A stretch of 64,000 nucleotides of DNA, taken from positions 2,691,734-2,755,733 of the forward strand of contig NZ_AQXI01000001.1 of NCBI RefSeq assembly GCF_000376445.1, read 5' to 3'. Of the stretch, positions 893 to 38,434 are shown in pieces. The notes beneath the pieces are model-generated. The model saw only the letters and a list, made by a program, of their open reading frames with translations. It was not told the origin of the DNA and did no database searches. The translations under genes were made by a program, and so were the position numbers. Every line of letters begins with the position of its first letter. The first letter of the stretch is position 1. The stretch is from Haladaptatus paucihalophilus DX253. Its GTDB lineage: Archaea > Halobacteriota > Halobacteria > Halobacteriales > Haladaptataceae.

Positions 893-1813
893 ATGACGAA
901 GGTTTCTCGTCGGGACCTTCTCGATGTTTTTTCTCGTGCGGACGACCCTCACGCACCACTGACGACGAGCGAGATAGCGTCCGCGCTGGGACGTGTCGAA
1001 GAACAGACACTCGAACGACTACGGACGTTAGCGGACGACGGCCTCCTCCAAACGAGAACCGTCGCGGATACGCACCGAGTCTGGTGGCCGCCGTGCGGCC
1101 GCTCGGACTGTTTTGCGGAGAACGACCGCCCTACGGACGGCCACCCCCGGATTCGAACGGTGTTTCGTTCCACCGACCTCGCCGAACCGTTCCGTGAGTT
1201 GGCGAACGGTTCGCTGTTCATCGAAATCGATTCGGTCGTACACCTCTCGGAGGGCGAACATCTCCAGTACTGGACCGCGACGGGAATATCCGCGGAAGCG
1301 TTGCTCGAAACGGTGATGGAGTTTCCGGCGACACTCGACGCGCGGTTGTTGAGCACCGTCAACGGAACTCACCGGGTAGAGTCCCACAGTTCGTTTCAGT
1401 CGTTGTTATCGATATTCGGTGAATTCGACGGAAAAACGAAATCAGCGACGTACGACGAGCAGGAAATCCGTATCGTAGCGGAGTTTCCTCCTTCGGTCGA
1501 TACGGAACGCGTCCAAGCGGTCGTTCGAGACGTCTACCCGGACCTCGAACTCGTCTCCACCTGTCGCGTCATCACGTCGAGTTTCGATTATCACCTGATA
1601 GAAGAGAAGTTGACGGAGCGACAGTTGACCGCGTTGCAGATGTCCTACTTCAGCGGCTATTTCGAGCAACCGCGCAAGTGCTCGGGCGTGGTGCTGGCAG
1701 AGAGGATGGGTATCTCCAAGCAGGCGTTCCACGAGCATCTCCGCAAAGCGTACGATACGGTGTTCGAGCAACTGTTCACGAACGTCGATGAAACGACAGT
1801 GCCTGACCAGTAA
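893..1813 (+). CDS. HTH-10 family (bacterio-opsin activator-like) transcriptional regulator
   Basis: The protein has 306 residues. The N-terminal 60 residues look like a winged helix (SEIASALGRVEEQTLERLR). The C-terminus is a clear HTH-10 domain: LTERQLTALQ, a GYFEQPR turn, then SKQAFHEHLRKA. The middle resembles the ligand-sensing or dimerising region of Bat-type proteins. I chose the ATG at 893. A TTG at 806 would add 29 residues of poor quality. A DUF7344 gene follows 67 nt downstream on the same strand. It probably acts as a DNA-binding regulator with an unknown signal. No PAS or GAF domain is evident in this copy. Confidence 0.85.
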   Translation: MTKVSRRDLLDVFSRADDPHAPLTTSEIASALGRVEEQTLERLRTLADDGLLQTRTVADTHRVWWPPCGRSDCFAENDRPTDGHPRIRTVFRSTDLAEPFRELANGSLFIEIDSVVHLSEGEHLQYWTATGISAEALLETVMEFPATLDARLLSTVNGTHRVESHSSFQSLLSIFGEFDGKTKSATYDEQEIRIVAEFPPSVDTERVQAVVRDVYPDLELVSTCRVITSSFDYHLIEEKLTERQLTALQMSYFSGYFEQPRKCSGVVLAERMGISKQAFHEHLRKAYDTVFEQLFTNVDETTVPDQ

Positions 1814-1880
1814 AGCTCTATTTTCATTGGCTTCGGACGCGATTATATTCCTGACTCGTTTGAGTCAGTGACCTGTAGAC

Positions 1881-2216
1881 ATGATAGACGAACCCATCTG
1901 CTCGAAGCTTTCGGTAGATTCGGTGTGTGGTGTGTTATCGAATGGGTGCCGCCGAAGCGTTTTATACCACCTCGACGCCTCGTCGTCCGACGTGTTCACG
2001 AGGGACGAACTCGCCGACCACCTCGTCGCGGCGGACACCGAGTACGAGGACCGAGAGCGGGCGCTGGTGCAACTCCACCATACGACGCTTCCGATGCTGG
2101 AGGACGTCGGGGTCATCGAGTACGATTCCCGGAGCAACGTCATCCGCTATCGAAGCGACCCGCTGCTCGATCAGTTCTTGTCGCTCTCGGCCGCGGTAGA
2201 GAAGCCGACGGAGTGA
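1881..2216 (+). CDS. DUF7344-type winged-helix protein
   Basis: This is a 111-residue haloarchaeal winged-helix-like protein. The conserved core includes RRSVLYHL near residue 25, FTRDELADHL, and the hallmark LHHTTLPMLEDVGVIEYD. The family is thought to bind DNA, but no target is known. It shares the LHH..LPMLED motif with the protein at 38030-38434, so they are paralogues. In both places the gene directly follows an HTH-10 regulator on the same strand. The ATG at 1881 gives the usual family length. Confidence 0.8.
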   Translation: MIDEPICSKLSVDSVCGVLSNGCRRSVLYHLDASSSDVFTRDELADHLVAADTEYEDRERALVQLHHTTLPMLEDVGVIEYDSRSNVIRYRSDPLLDQFLSLSAAVEKPTE

Positions 2217-3850: not shown

Positions 3851-5008
3851 ATGACTGCAACACGACGAACGTTTCTGACGGCGGCTGGCTGTGCGGGACT
3901 GCTTGGGCTCGGCGTAACGGCGACGACAGGTGAAAGCGAAACGACCGTTTCGCGCGATTCGTACACGATTCGGAGCGGCACCGACCAAGAAACGACGGTG
4001 TTCGTCACGTCCGCGAGCGAGTCCGGCCCGACGGTGATGGTCGTCGGCGGCGTACACGGAAACGAAAACGGAGGCTACACGGCGGCCGAGAAGGTCGCCC
4101 AGTGGGACATCGCCCGCGGAACACTGGTGACGATTCCGAAGGCGAACGCCGCGGCCGTCGAGGAGGATTCCCGCATCGCGGACGGCGGCGTGGACCTGAA
4201 TCGCCAGTTCCCGACCGGTGAGGAACCGGAGACGGAACTCGCCCGCGCCATCTGGGGCGTCGTCGAGCGATTCCAACCGGATACCGTCATCGACCTCCAC
4301 GAATCCGTCGGCATCTACGACGGCGATATGGTCGGTGGCGTCGGTCAGGCCATCTTCTCGTCGTGGGACGACCGGGCGTTCAGCGACGCCAGAGCGGCCG
4401 CAGACTATCTCAACGACAACTACGTCTCGCGCGACGGCTACGACTTCACGGTCGACCCGTTCTCCTCGTCCTCCAACGAACCGACCGGTCTGCTCACGCA
4501 CAAGGCCGCGCGCGACACCGACGCCGTTGCGTTCCTCGTCGAAGCGACCTCGGATGACACGGCCCTCGATACGCGAGTGCAGTGGCTCACCAAGATAACC
4601 CAACAACTCGTCGAGGAGGACGTGCTCACTTCGTCGGATGGCGGAAGCGGCGGAGACGGCGGCGACGATGGCGGTGACGACGGAAGCGACGGAAACGATG
4701 GCGGTGACGACGGCGACAACGAACAGAACGAGGCCCCGGTCGCGCGGATTCGGACGACGCCGAGCGACACGACCGGCGGGGCGCTCGAACGCGGCGATAC
4801 CGTGACGCTCGACGCCTCCCCGTCGTCGGACGGCGACGGCGAAATCGTCGAATACATGTGGGACACCGACGGCGACGGGTCGTTCGAGGAAAGCGGCGAG
4901 ACGGCCGAGATGACCCTCTCTACCTGTGGTCGTTACCGTGTCTCCCTCCAAGTCACCGACGACAAGGGGGCGACGGCCACGGACGAGGCTATCCTCTCCG
5001 TCAAATAA
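3851..5008 (+). CDS. Secreted succinylglutamate desuccinylase/aspartoacylase-like zinc enzyme with PKD domain
   Basis: The protein has 385 residues. It begins with a Tat-type signal (TRRTFLTAAG). An AstE/aspartoacylase-like carboxypeptidase fold follows. Zinc-site candidates are His69 and Glu72 (HGNE) and His150 (DLHES), with the family's DLNRQF motif at 115-120. A Gly/Asp linker at about residues 258-288 leads to a PKD-like domain (about 295-385). The architecture suggests an extracellular hydrolase acting on an amide or peptide substrate. AstE enzymes are usually cytoplasmic, so the substrate here is unknown. The G/D-rich linker is in frame and typical of haloarchaeal secreted proteins. Confidence 0.85.
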   Translation: MTATRRTFLTAAGCAGLLGLGVTATTGESETTVSRDSYTIRSGTDQETTVFVTSASESGPTVMVVGGVHGNENGGYTAAEKVAQWDIARGTLVTIPKANAAAVEEDSRIADGGVDLNRQFPTGEEPETELARAIWGVVERFQPDTVIDLHESVGIYDGDMVGGVGQAIFSSWDDRAFSDARAAADYLNDNYVSRDGYDFTVDPFSSSSNEPTGLLTHKAARDTDAVAFLVEATSDDTALDTRVQWLTKITQQLVEEDVLTSSDGGSGGDGGDDGGDDGSDGNDGGDDGDNEQNEAPVARIRTTPSDTTGGALERGDTVTLDASPSSDGDGEIVEYMWDTDGDGSFEESGETAEMTLSTCGRYRVSLQVTDDKGATATDEAILSVK

Positions 5009-18840: not shown

Positions 18841-19500
18841 TCACCGTCCGAAAAGGGTGGAAAAGAGGTGCGCTTCGGCCTTTCGAAGGTGTTCGTCCAC
18901 GGTGCTCGGTGCACATTCCAGTCGTTCCGCGATGTCCGCGTGAGTGGCCTGTCGCGGTATCTGATAGTACCCGTGTTTGACGGCGGTTTCGAGCACTTCG
19001 CGCTGTCGGTCAGTCAGTCCGGAGAACAGGTGGTCGGAGTCCGGTGCGTACTCTCCGGTCTGTTCGACGCGAATGTCGATTCGCTGCGGTAGTTCGCGGA
19101 ACGCTCGCTGTATCATCTCCTGCGTCCCGACGACGGTTGCGAGGATGTCTCCGGAGTCGGTGTACGTGAGCGGCGTGTCGATGATGAGCGCGTACTTCTC
19201 GACGACGTACATGAGCGTCCCCGCCGGTTCACCGGCTTCGACGTAGATGTAGATATGGAACGATCCGTCGTGGACGTCGAGGATATCGTAGGCCAACACG
19301 GATTCGTGTGCGTCCAAATCCTCCACGAGTCCGTCCGAGTTCCCCCGAAGTCGATAGAGGAGGACGCCGCCGCCGTTGAAGATGGAATTAACGTGGAGGA
19401 GTTGGTCCCGCGTCACGTCGGCCCGCGCCGCGATGACATCTCCGACCGGATGGATGCCCTGACCGTCGAGCACTAATTTGAGCGTTAGAAATCTCATCAT
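18841..19500 (-). CDS. HTH-10 family (Bat-like) transcriptional regulator
   Basis: This 219-residue regulator has an N-terminal sensing region of about 155 residues without an obvious PAS or GAF domain. A C-terminal HTH-10 domain follows (LTDRQREVLETAVKHGYYQIPR, then DIAERLECAPSTVDEHLRKAEAHLF). Helix two holds the recognition segment APSTVDEHLRKA. It lies between the genes for the secreted repeat protein and the DUF6114/DUF6230-like pair, all on the minus strand. It is the natural candidate regulator for them. An AT-rich region upstream (19505-19555) should hold its promoter. Confidence 0.85.
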   Translation of the reverse strand: MMRFLTLKLVLDGQGIHPVGDVIAARADVTRDQLLHVNSIFNGGGVLLYRLRGNSDGLVEDLDAHESVLAYDILDVHDGSFHIYIYVEAGEPAGTLMYVVEKYALIIDTPLTYTDSGDILATVVGTQEMIQRAFRELPQRIDIRVEQTGEYAPDSDHLFSGLTDRQREVLETAVKHGYYQIPRQATHADIAERLECAPSTVDEHLRKAEAHLFSTLFGR

Positions 19501-35322: not shown

Positions 35323-35455
35323 GGAAGGTAACGGCAACCGACGTCCCAGTGTGTTCTACCCGTATATACAAGCGGTTTAAATACTCCATCCCCTGCCCAT
35401 CGTTCGGACGTCGGGCAAAAGCCTCTTACTCATCGACTGCGTGATTCTCCCAACC

Positions 35456-37972
35456 ATGACCGAACCGCTTTCGAACGAAAATCTCTCCACGCGGTCCTCG
35501 CTCGCCGAGACGGAAACCGAAGCGGAGACCGCCTTTTTCAAGCACATCGTCCGGGATGCGCTCGATGCGGTGGTGACGATTTCCGAGAACGGAACCATCG
35601 TATTCGCGAACGAGGTGGCGGGACGACTCTTCGGTTACGACCAAGACGAGTTGCTCGACGAGTCGATACGGAGTCTCTTCCCGGAGCGACATCAAGAGAC
35701 CTATCTCGACGAGTTTCGACGGCAGGTCGAGAACGCGGACTCGACGGTCGAACACAGCGGTCTCGAACGAACCGCAATCCGTCGAGACGGGGAGGAGTTT
35801 CCGGTTTCCTTTTCGCTCCGGGAACACCGGTATCACGACCGGCGACTGTTCACCGCCACGATTCGAGACATCTCCGAACGGAAACGACGGCAACGGGAAC
35901 TGGAAACCGTCACCGAAAAGTATCGAACGCTGGTCGATACCGCGCCCGATGCTATCTTTCTCGCCGACGCGGAAACGGGGACGATTCTGGAAGCGAACCG
36001 GGCGGCGTCCGAACTCCTCGACCGGCCGATAGAGGAGATCGAGGGGATGCACCAGTCCGAACTCCACCCCGAGGACGACCGCGACCGATACGAACGGCTG
36101 TTCGATCGACCGCGCGAAAGCGACGCGTCCGTTCCGGACAGCCACGGCCTTTCGGTGGTCGATTCGAACGGGAATCGCATCCCCGTGTCCATCAACTCGA
36201 ACTCGACCGAGCTGAACGGGCGACGAGTGGTTCAAGGCATCTTCCACGACATCAGCGACAGGAAGCGGCGCGAGGAGGCCCTGAACAGGTTACACGCGAC
36301 GACGCACGAGATGCTCGAAACGTCGTGCCCCGAAACCATCTGTCAACGTGCGGTGGAAACCGCGGCCGACGTGCTCGACCTGCCCGCGACGGGCATCTAC
36401 CTCCTTTCGGAGGACGACGACGTGCTCGAACCGGTCGTGATGACCGAACGGGTCGAGAACCTGTTCGACGGTGACGTTCCGACGTACACGTCCGACGATG
36501 ACCTCGCGTGGGACGTGTTCGAAACGAACGAACCGAGGGCCATCTCCGACTTCGATGCGACGCCCAGCGTGGCGGACCGGGACACGCCGGTTCGAAGCGG
36601 TATCATCGTTCCGCTCGGCGAACACGGAATCTTCATCACCGCGTCCACGACCCCCCGCGATTTCGACCGCATCGACTTCGACCTGATGCGGGTGCTGGCC
36701 ACCAACACCGAGACGGCCCTGACACGGGCCGAACGCGAGCGCGACATCGCCCGACAGCGCGACGAGTTGACGACGCTGAACCGCATCAACGCCATCGTTC
36801 GGGATATCAATCAAGCCCTCGTCGCCGCGCCGTCGCGCGAGGAGATCGAACGGACCGTCTGTGAACGGTTCGCGGATTCGAGCGTCTATCACGGTGCCCT
36901 CATCGCAACGCTCTCGTCGACCGAGGAGCGGTTGGTGGTTCAGACGGCCGCCGGTATCGACGACGACTATCTGGACCTGATTACGGAGTTAGGGCCCAAG
37001 TCGAAACGCGGGGGTGCCGGGACCGCCCTCCAAACGGGACAGTTCAACGTCGTCGAGGACGTGTCGTCCTTGTCGTCGTTGCCGCAGTCGTTCACATCCG
37101 CCGCCAACGAACGCGGGTACGGTTCCATCGCGTGTATTCCCATCAGTTACCGCGGAACCACCTACGGCGTGTTGGTCGTGTACGCGACCAAACTGACGTC
37201 GGTCAGCGAGCGCGAGCGGAGCGTGTTCAGCGAGTTGGGGGAAACCATCGGCCACGCCATCAACGCCGTCGAGAGCAAGAAACTCCTCTACTCCGACAGC
37301 GTTCTCGAACTCGAATTCTCGATCACGAACACGGGTTCGTTTTTCGTCGTCACGTCCGAGGAACTCGGCTGTTCGTTCGAACTCGATGGCGTCGTCCCTC
37401 GACGGGACGACGTGTATCTGTTTTACGTGACGTTGAGCGGGGCTCCCTCCGAGAAGGTCATCGAACGCGCGGACGAGTCACCCATGGTCGAACACGTCCG
37501 TGTCATCCAAGAGACCGGCGACGAAACCCTGTTGGAGGTGGCGCTTTGCGGAACCGAAACGTCCGCCCAAGCGCTCATCGAACGCGGTGCCTACGTCCAA
37601 CGTGGTTCGATAGAAGACGGAAAGGGAAGCATCGTCGTCGAAGTCCCGGCGAACACCCGCGTTCGTCCCTTCTTGGACGCCGTCGAGGAGGTGTACGAGG
37701 AGACGAGTCTGCTCTCGAAGCAGTCCCGCGACCGGCCGTTTCACTCGACCTCCGAGTTCTACCACGAACTGGGCGAGACGCTCACCGAACGACAGGCCGA
37801 AATCCTGCAAGCGGCGTATCTCGCGGGATACTTCGACTACCCCCGCGCGAGTTCGGGGGCGGAGCTGGCCGACACGCTGGATATCTCCTCGCCCACGTTT
37901 CACCAACACCTCCAAACGGCCGAGCGAAAACTCCTCTCGCTGCTGTTTTCGGAGCGTCCACGGATAGACTGA
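35456..37972 (+). CDS. PAS-PAS-GAF-GAF HTH-10 sensor-regulator (Bat-like)
   Basis: This 838-residue soluble protein combines sensing and DNA binding. PAS 1 is at about 20-145 (DALDAVVTISENGTIVFANE). PAS 2 is at about 155-275 (LVDTAPDAIFLADAETG), ending in the ISDRKRREE linker. Two GAF-like domains cover about 285-430 and 440-610 (RVLATNTETALTRAERE; YGSIACIPISYRGTTYGVL). A Bat-like module and the HTH-10 domain (LTERQAEILQAAYLAGYFDYPR, SPTFHQHLQTAERKLLSLLF) end the protein. There is no kinase or receiver domain and no membrane helix, so it is a one-component regulator of possibly redox or light-related signals. A DUF7344 gene follows. Confidence 0.9.
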   Translation: MTEPLSNENLSTRSSLAETETEAETAFFKHIVRDALDAVVTISENGTIVFANEVAGRLFGYDQDELLDESIRSLFPERHQETYLDEFRRQVENADSTVEHSGLERTAIRRDGEEFPVSFSLREHRYHDRRLFTATIRDISERKRRQRELETVTEKYRTLVDTAPDAIFLADAETGTILEANRAASELLDRPIEEIEGMHQSELHPEDDRDRYERLFDRPRESDASVPDSHGLSVVDSNGNRIPVSINSNSTELNGRRVVQGIFHDISDRKRREEALNRLHATTHEMLETSCPETICQRAVETAADVLDLPATGIYLLSEDDDVLEPVVMTERVENLFDGDVPTYTSDDDLAWDVFETNEPRAISDFDATPSVADRDTPVRSGIIVPLGEHGIFITASTTPRDFDRIDFDLMRVLATNTETALTRAERERDIARQRDELTTLNRINAIVRDINQALVAAPSREEIERTVCERFADSSVYHGALIATLSSTEERLVVQTAAGIDDDYLDLITELGPKSKRGGAGTALQTGQFNVVEDVSSLSSLPQSFTSAANERGYGSIACIPISYRGTTYGVLVVYATKLTSVSERERSVFSELGETIGHAINAVESKKLLYSDSVLELEFSITNTGSFFVVTSEELGCSFELDGVVPRRDDVYLFYVTLSGAPSEKVIERADESPMVEHVRVIQETGDETLLEVALCGTETSAQALIERGAYVQRGSIEDGKGSIVVEVPANTRVRPFLDAVEEVYEETSLLSKQSRDRPFHSTSEFYHELGETLTERQAEILQAAYLAGYFDYPRASSGAELADTLDISSPTFHQHLQTAERKLLSLLFSERPRID

Positions 37973-38029
37973 CCCCGATACCTCAGTACTGAGGCAAAGG
38001 ACTGGTGCCCCCGGAACGGATTGTAGGTG

Positions 38030-38434
38030 ATGATGAGCGACTCGGAGCAACCAAACGACACACATCTCGAAACGAGTCGACGACACCCGGAGGAGGAGAG
38101 TGACAGTTCGTTACCGCCGGGAACCGTGGAGCGAATCCTCTCGGATGCACAGCGGCGTGCTCTCTGCCAGTATCTCGTCGAATCGCCGCTTACGACGATG
38201 GACGAACTCATCGACTTGCTCGTTCAGCACGACGATTTCCGCGGTCGTGAGACGGCGCTGATTCGCCTCCACCACATTCACCTGCCGATGTTGGAAGATT
38301 GCGGTATTCTGACGTACGAAGCACGGAGCGAAACCGTCCGGTATTGGGGACACGAGGAACTCGAACGACGACTCGAACTGTGCCGCGACTCGGAGACGGA
38401 CGACGTGAACGACCATCCGAAAAGTCGGACGTGA
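38030..38434 (+). CDS. DUF7344-type winged-helix protein
   Basis: The protein has 134 residues from the second of three tandem possible starts (GTG 38027, ATG 38030, ATG 38033). The core reads DAQRRALCQYLVESPLTTMDE, then ALIRLHHIHLPMLEDCGIL and a beta-wing (YEARSETVRYW). It is a clear paralogue of the protein at 1881-2216. It sits 57 nt downstream of the PAS/GAF HTH-10 gene on the same strand, which suggests co-regulation. The acidic N-terminal 35 residues are probably disordered. Its role is likely gene regulation, not demonstrated. Confidence 0.8.
   Translation: MMSDSEQPNDTHLETSRRHPEEESDSSLPPGTVERILSDAQRRALCQYLVESPLTTMDELIDLLVQHDDFRGRETALIRLHHIHLPMLEDCGILTYEARSETVRYWGHEELERRLELCRDSETDDVNDHPKSRT

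Follow-up and report, generated by a model that had tools for sequence, protein, structure and literature searches.

Bat-type regulator genes followed by a gene for a predicted winged-helix protein, DUF7344: a recurrent, favoured pairing in haloarchaea

Among described systems, the closest to the gene pair considered here is that of Bat, Brz and Brb at the bop locus of Halobacterium salinarum, in which Brz is a zinc-finger protein. There, likewise, a Bat-type (HTH_10) regulator is accompanied by small regulatory proteins encoded nearby (PMC3184054); Brb is a small basic protein according to the published abstract, and PMC3184054 names two options for Bat and the small regulators of the same region: they cooperate as proteins, or one of them regulates another. 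However, neither Brz nor Brb is a winged-helix protein, as DUF7344 is predicted to be, and bop control concerns one locus, whereas pairs with DUF7344 recur in many genera. A second point of comparison is HalOD1 (PF18545), which, like DUF7344, is a small, many-copy haloarchaeal signalling protein also found directly behind HTH_10, although its domain is unrelated to DUF7344 and has no winged helix; PMC5847659 presents it as a possible metal-binding output domain. As for the regulators themselves, the HTH-10 protein HVO_1357 of Haloferax volcanii is linked to hypermotility in PMC7824242. Matches to both HTH_10 and DUF7344 were found in this species. The DUF7344 family (PF24035) is without an assigned function and we found no paper naming either DUF7344 or PF24035 in the open-licence literature, within which the statement of an earlier note on this DNA, that the pairing had not been described, therefore holds.

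The window, i.e. the whole stretch of 64,000 nt that was analysed (C1:2691734-2755733; the genome comprises 4.32 Mb on 6 contigs), contains the pairing twice. The earlier note had read an HTH-10 regulator followed 67 nt later by a DUF7344 gene on the same strand and a recurrence of this layout at 35456-38434, and ORFs and Pfam domains agree with both readings:

893..1813, + strand: first regulator, with HTH_20-like (N-terminal), BAT and HTH_10 domains (ORF and Pfam)
1814..1880, + strand: first gap, 67 nt, with the dyad CTGACTC-GTTT-GAGTCAG at 1851-1868 (candidate operator)
1881..2216, + strand: first DUF7344 protein, 111 aa, modelled as an ArsR-like winged helix
34729..35166, + strand: third, divergent DUF7344 ORF, 145 aa, 27.4 bits (hmmscan), marginally below the cut-off of 27.8
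35441..37972, + strand: second regulator, with PAS, PAS, GAF, GAF, BAT and HTH_10 domains (ORF and Pfam)
37973..38026, + strand: second gap, 54 nt, with the palindrome CCTCAGTACTGAGG at 37981-37994 (candidate operator)
38027..38434, + strand: second DUF7344 protein, 135 aa, 43.1 bits (Pfam)

The ORF of the first regulator, which ends at 1813, has possible starts at 893 (ATG) and, upstream, at 806 (TTG), while the second regulator has 843 aa if started at the GTG at 35441 and has an ATG at 35456. Both exceed the curated cut-offs for HTH_10 (PF04967, 23.1 bits) and BAT (PF15915, 25.8 bits), with BAT preceding HTH_10: HTH_10 scores 71 and 74.3 bits and BAT 67.7 and 147.1 bits in the first and second regulator, respectively, and the first also has HTH_20 at 29.9 bits. 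BAT and HTH_10 were found together in 4/4 short paired regulators tested elsewhere in the genome. Both follower proteins are members of DUF7344 above its curated cut-off (PF24035, 27.8 bits), the first scoring 57.6 bits. The divergent third ORF sits 274 nt 5' of the second regulator, giving a DUF7344 - HTH_10 - DUF7344 sandwich, and a similar row was seen at another locus (L167). Another HTH_10 match in the window (18862-19017, - strand, in a 219-aa ORF) has no DUF7344 behind it. The stretch LHH..LPMLED, which the earlier note found to be shared by the two DUF7344 proteins, turned out to be the signature of the whole family (H67 in 98%, L70 in 93% and P71 in 100% of 58 aligned proteins) and was rejected as a feature that would set the pairs apart.

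Is this adjacency more frequent than gene abundance predicts? This check had been set in advance by the earlier note, and its outcome favours pairing. The window's genome has 63 HTH_10 matches and 42 separate DUF7344 matches (43 in the raw listing, one of which was dropped because the protein it belongs to was already represented by its other half), and a DUF7344 gene lies directly behind on the same strand for 10 of the 63 HTH_10 vs 0.18 expected under uniform placement, with gaps between ORFs of 43-126 nt. As controls in the same genome, HTH_10 followed by HTH_20 was found once (0.28 expected), and HTH_10 followed by HTH_10 or DUF7344 followed by DUF7344 not at all. The count was extended to eight genomes of eight families (the window's own and seven from seven other families, picked from 59 for family spread and DUF7344 counts), in which 19 regulator-first pairs were found within 600 nt (own 10, G016 3, G039 2, G053 2, G012 1, G011 1, with none in G048 and G052), whereas 5000 random shifts of each genome gave 0.49 pairs on average and never more than 4. 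These numbers test the pairing described here, not the bop locus. The order is strongly biased: beside the 19 regulator-first pairs within 600 nt there were four DUF7344-first (three in G048, where gaps of 2 and 3 nt occur, and one in G039) and no convergent or divergent cases; within 1500 nt, the figures were 21, 6, 2 and 4, respectively. Since HTH_10 is at the C-terminus of the regulator, the 600-nt limit yields too low a count for the DUF7344-first order. The pairs of the window's genome, moreover, all involve short-form DUF7344 proteins of less than 165 aa (10/27 short vs 0/15 long; Fisher p 0.007). That the pairing of HTH_10 with DUF7344 is real, and not the product of chance, is thus well supported.

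One could nevertheless imagine that there is no functional tie, two large and expanding families in regulator-rich or plasmid-borne regions having been brought side by side by duplication and hitch-hiking. The size of the families with their many paralogues, the disagreement between partner trees (see below) and the occurrence of DUF7344 relatives on plasmids (136 plasmid records) would be in keeping with this. We consider it very improbable and disfavour it, since the 19 pairs far exceed the mean of the shifts, pairings within either family show no excess and HTH_10 is followed by HTH_20 in one case only, order and strand are strongly biased, the pairs in the window's genome are chiefly on its main contig (8 on C1, 1 on C4 and 1 on C3) and one orthologous pair has been kept in 12 genomes.

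The latter pair, which consists of a GAF-BAT-HTH_10 regulator and a DUF7344 protein, is found in 12 genomes of one genus (g2), with identities to the reference copy of 58-80% for the regulator and 50-85% for DUF7344. DUF7344 itself is present in 59/59 sampled genomes of the order. A search with the window's DUF7344 protein covered 28 genomes of its family, the window's own among them, and in 14 of the 29 loci examined from the other genomes the matching DUF7344 gene was directly behind HTH_10. No clear orthologue emerged for the window's own pair, the matches listed outside its genome being 29-48% identical. Named genomes, scanned with an alignment query made from paired proteins, yielded 243 relatives, and 79 distinct loci (some of them duplicated copies) were examined. 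Matches in Haladaptatus and Halorussus among these relatives suggest that the window's genome belongs to their family. DUF7344 was directly behind HTH_10 in 29 of these 79, a fraction that is biased towards pairs because the query was built from paired proteins. They represent 16 named genera (Halorussus, Halorientalis, Halomarina, Haloarcula, Haladaptatus, Halomicrococcus, Natrarchaeobius, Natribaculum, Natronocalculus, Halorubrum, Salinadaptatus, Halovenus, Natrinema, Halosimplex, Natronosalvus and Natronolimnohabitans) and one Haloarculaceae. The other 50 loci have no HTH_10 directly upstream; a G+C heuristic found an upstream gene in 40 of them. Among the annotated plasmid homologues listed, 22/30 are named 'hypothetical protein', and one plasmid homologue is annotated as 'ArsR family transcriptional regulator'; the window's DUF7344 protein had no match at E 0.1 among phage records.

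In a tree of 61 of the 63 HTH_10 matches, paired members are found in a short-regulator clade (5/17) and a Bat-like sensor clade (5/17), with 0/22 in a third group and 0/5 among the others, and the ten paired regulators require 9 changes vs a mean of 9.5 for shuffled labels, which is no better. The DUF7344 tree is poorly resolved, with the paired proteins spread across it. Those of pairs 6 and 10 cluster at full support (100/98), together with one reversed-order relative, and their regulators belong to different clades, so partners were exchanged or the pairing arose more than once. Tree distances of the partners are uncorrelated (r -0.04 for 35 pairs, r -0.19 for the 10 own pairs); identity-based distances do correlate in two of three sets (35 pairs, r 0.35; 24 short-regulator pairs, r 0.26) and not in the third, made up of the ten pairs of the window's genome (r -0.17). 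Although a shared history of the partners may be hidden by saturation, the scatter of paired members and the uncorrelated tree distances leave a single ancestral pair copied as a unit unsupported, and the partners look reshuffled. A subgroup of DUF7344 (W..., GP.FEEI.PLL) that looked linked to HTH_10 in its first six loci proved not to be exclusive to HTH_10 on a wider search, its 30 best loci comprising six regulator-first pairs and one reversed pair flagged by the script, with two further reversed loci (L169 and L171) outside the script's window.

DUF7344 genes also keep other company. A regulator of the Lrp/AsnC type directly precedes DUF7344 in five cases in the eight genomes vs 0.21 expected (76 AsnC matches above cut-off), and in none of the 79 named loci. 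One locus (L131) has AsnC, DUF7344 and HTH_10 in series. At another (L183; genome G072, contig 4), an ORF joins DUF7344 in frame to the C-terminal portion of an AsnC-like protein, and a stop codon interrupts the AsnC sequence further upstream. HalOD1 is behind DUF7344 in 10/79 named loci, two of which are HTH_10-DUF7344-HalOD1 rows; such triples occur at L222, L233 and the pair at C1:794521 in the window's genome, and a RefSeq plasmid record has a bacterio-opsin activator protein, a 'hypothetical protein' (DUF7344) and HalOD1 in series. HalOD1 is also directly behind HTH_10 in four cases in the window's genome (loci e.g. C1:2599090, 656018, 766000 and 1150113), and receiver-HalX proteins are behind two more HTH_10 there (one by Pfam, one by eye). 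The unpaired short DUF7344 genes adjoin varied genes. One of them (L104, C1:73659-73892) lies 33 nt 5' of a GrpE-like and then a DnaK-like gene (named by eye), and it is possible that its product regulates a heat-shock operon.

The earlier note's notion of a two-protein regulatory module thus captures a pairing that does exceed chance and is otherwise too narrow: 32/42 DUF7344 matches of the window's genome are not behind HTH_10 and 53/63 HTH_10 have no DUF7344 behind, AsnC and HalOD1 are neighbours as well, partner trees mismatch, the order is sometimes reversed and one Halorussus locus has DUF7344 with only a remnant of a regulator. The tie is favoured, not obligate. A possible, rather doubtful reading of this variety is that DUF7344 proteins are plug-in winged-helix co-regulators recruited repeatedly by unrelated sensors (BAT/HTH_10 and Lrp/AsnC), in either order, each forming a complex with its sensor.

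What kind of protein is DUF7344? A structure model built from 58 aligned proteins (pLDDT 89.6, pTM 0.81) has helices at 12-19, 22-33, 41-50, 58-75 and 94-107 and strands at 79-82 and 87-90 that form a wing, and it is confidently modelled as a winged helix, probably an ArsR-like one. ArsR-type repressors (AntR, CadC, HlyU, SqrR, BigR, SmtB and CzrA) predominate among the top-ranked solved structures, with Z 9.5-10.5, the best being AntR at 10.5; ArsR-type rows overall have Z 8.6-10.5, and other winged helices (Jet proteins and replication initiators/ORC) Z 8-10. Foldseek with the DUF7344 model returned nothing at E 0.001, nor did a viral structure library at the same threshold. Whereas the predicted fold may be that of ArsR/SmtB repressors, likeness in sequence is marginal: a search of the PDB by sequence gave no convincing match (SmtB at E 0.27), the ArsR sequence family NF033788 scores 15.7 bits against a cut-off of 55 for one of two DUF7344 proteins and gives no match for the other, and HTH_20 is detected in 2/58 DUF7344 proteins at E 0.001. 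In contrast to ArsR/SmtB, DUF7344 has a near-invariant H-x-x-L-P motif in the region of the recognition helix, the strongest conservation among the 58 proteins being at R24, R25, L44, L65, H67, L70 and P71, and it lacks conserved cysteines (no column with more than 9% cysteine), so ArsR-type metal sensing via cysteines is not expected.

DUF7344 might have kept the shape of a winged helix without binding DNA and serve as an adaptor relaying the sensor's signal to outputs such as HalOD1, as could be suspected from the triples mentioned above, from a single 402-aa ORF with DUF7344 and HalOD1, from the invariant proline in the recognition-helix region and from the net acidic character of the 58 aligned DUF7344 proteins. 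Net acidic proteins are, however, common in haloarchaea, the model shows both the helix and the wing undisturbed and the gaps between paired genes have an excess of dyads, and we regard such a role as improbable. The ORF in question (L060) is in the window's genome at C1:975506-976084.

The gaps of the ten pairs in the window's genome have longer inverted repeats than dinucleotide shuffles (arm sum 55 vs 45.1, z 3.3), with a similar excess in 25 unique gaps of named loci (z 2.7), while control segments show no clear excess (z 1.1 for the 88 nt behind unpaired HTH_10, z 0.9 before unpaired and z 0.2 before paired HTH_10). Both window gaps have 7-bp arms. The signal is modest and the repeats vary in sequence, arms of at least 7 being also present in 9/52 control segments before unpaired HTH_10. 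The pairing is conserved in Halorussus-type genomes, where the gaps begin with a conserved block, TTTAGG-n6-GTTCTT (and variants), which precedes the ATG by about 39-56 nt. Judged by this position, the block may be an upstream promoter element of the DUF7344 gene itself. It is retained where the regulator has been lost: in Halorussus aquaticus (L200, about 4590-4925), the regulator is gone save for an apparent C-terminal remnant, and the DUF7344 gene and the preceding block are intact.

Such a promoter would also suit a purely local role, in which DUF7344 is an autonomous repressor of its cassette, acting on its own gene and perhaps on that of the regulator, with neither contact to HTH_10 nor a wider regulon. 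The dyads before DUF7344, the survival of the promoter-like block after regulator loss and the lack of any HTH_10-DUF7344 fusion among the ORFs of 277 loci speak for it. Yet there is no excess of dyads before paired regulators, and DUF7344 pairs with specific families (HTH_10 and AsnC, HTH_20 accounting for one case only, which is the AsnC one), and feedback confined to the cassette therefore seems unlikely to us.

On balance, we lean towards DUF7344 being an exchangeable small winged-helix co-regulator of the neighbouring sensor-regulator in a recurrent signalling cassette. The first gene would encode a Bat-type one-component sensor-regulator (BAT and HTH_10, with or without PAS/GAF) and the second a small, soluble, ArsR-like co-regulator. 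The latter, probably as a dimer, would bind DNA at dyads, including candidate sites in the gap that precedes its own gene, and would thereby damp or shape the output of the regulator. Its gene, probably with a promoter of its own in the gap, would probably be a local target of the regulator, which would make the cassette a relay with feedback. Different HTH_10 clades, and Lrp/AsnC regulators as well, would each have acquired such a partner, which would act with its sensor-regulator much as Bat acts with Brz and Brb. The case for co-regulation is built on the enrichment, the bias in order, the orthologous pair of genus g2, the paired named loci, the restriction to short forms, the winged-helix model, the gap dyads and the Halorussus block; weighed against it are the many unpaired genes, the uncorrelated partner trees, the lack of a clear orthologue of the window's pair, the Halorussus DUF7344 gene without a regulator and the modest, sequence-varied dyads.

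A family that is found in all sampled genomes of the order, mostly without a role, thus gains from its neighbours a testable one, and the same neighbour rule provides partners for particular sensors and promoter segments in which operators can be searched for. If small winged-helix partners are indeed recruited repeatedly by unrelated sensors, transcription in haloarchaea would be rewired through the exchange of a small second DNA-binding subunit, without the need to evolve new sensors. These observations also suggest that combining Bat with a small partner represents a general design, not a peculiarity of bacteriorhodopsin control.
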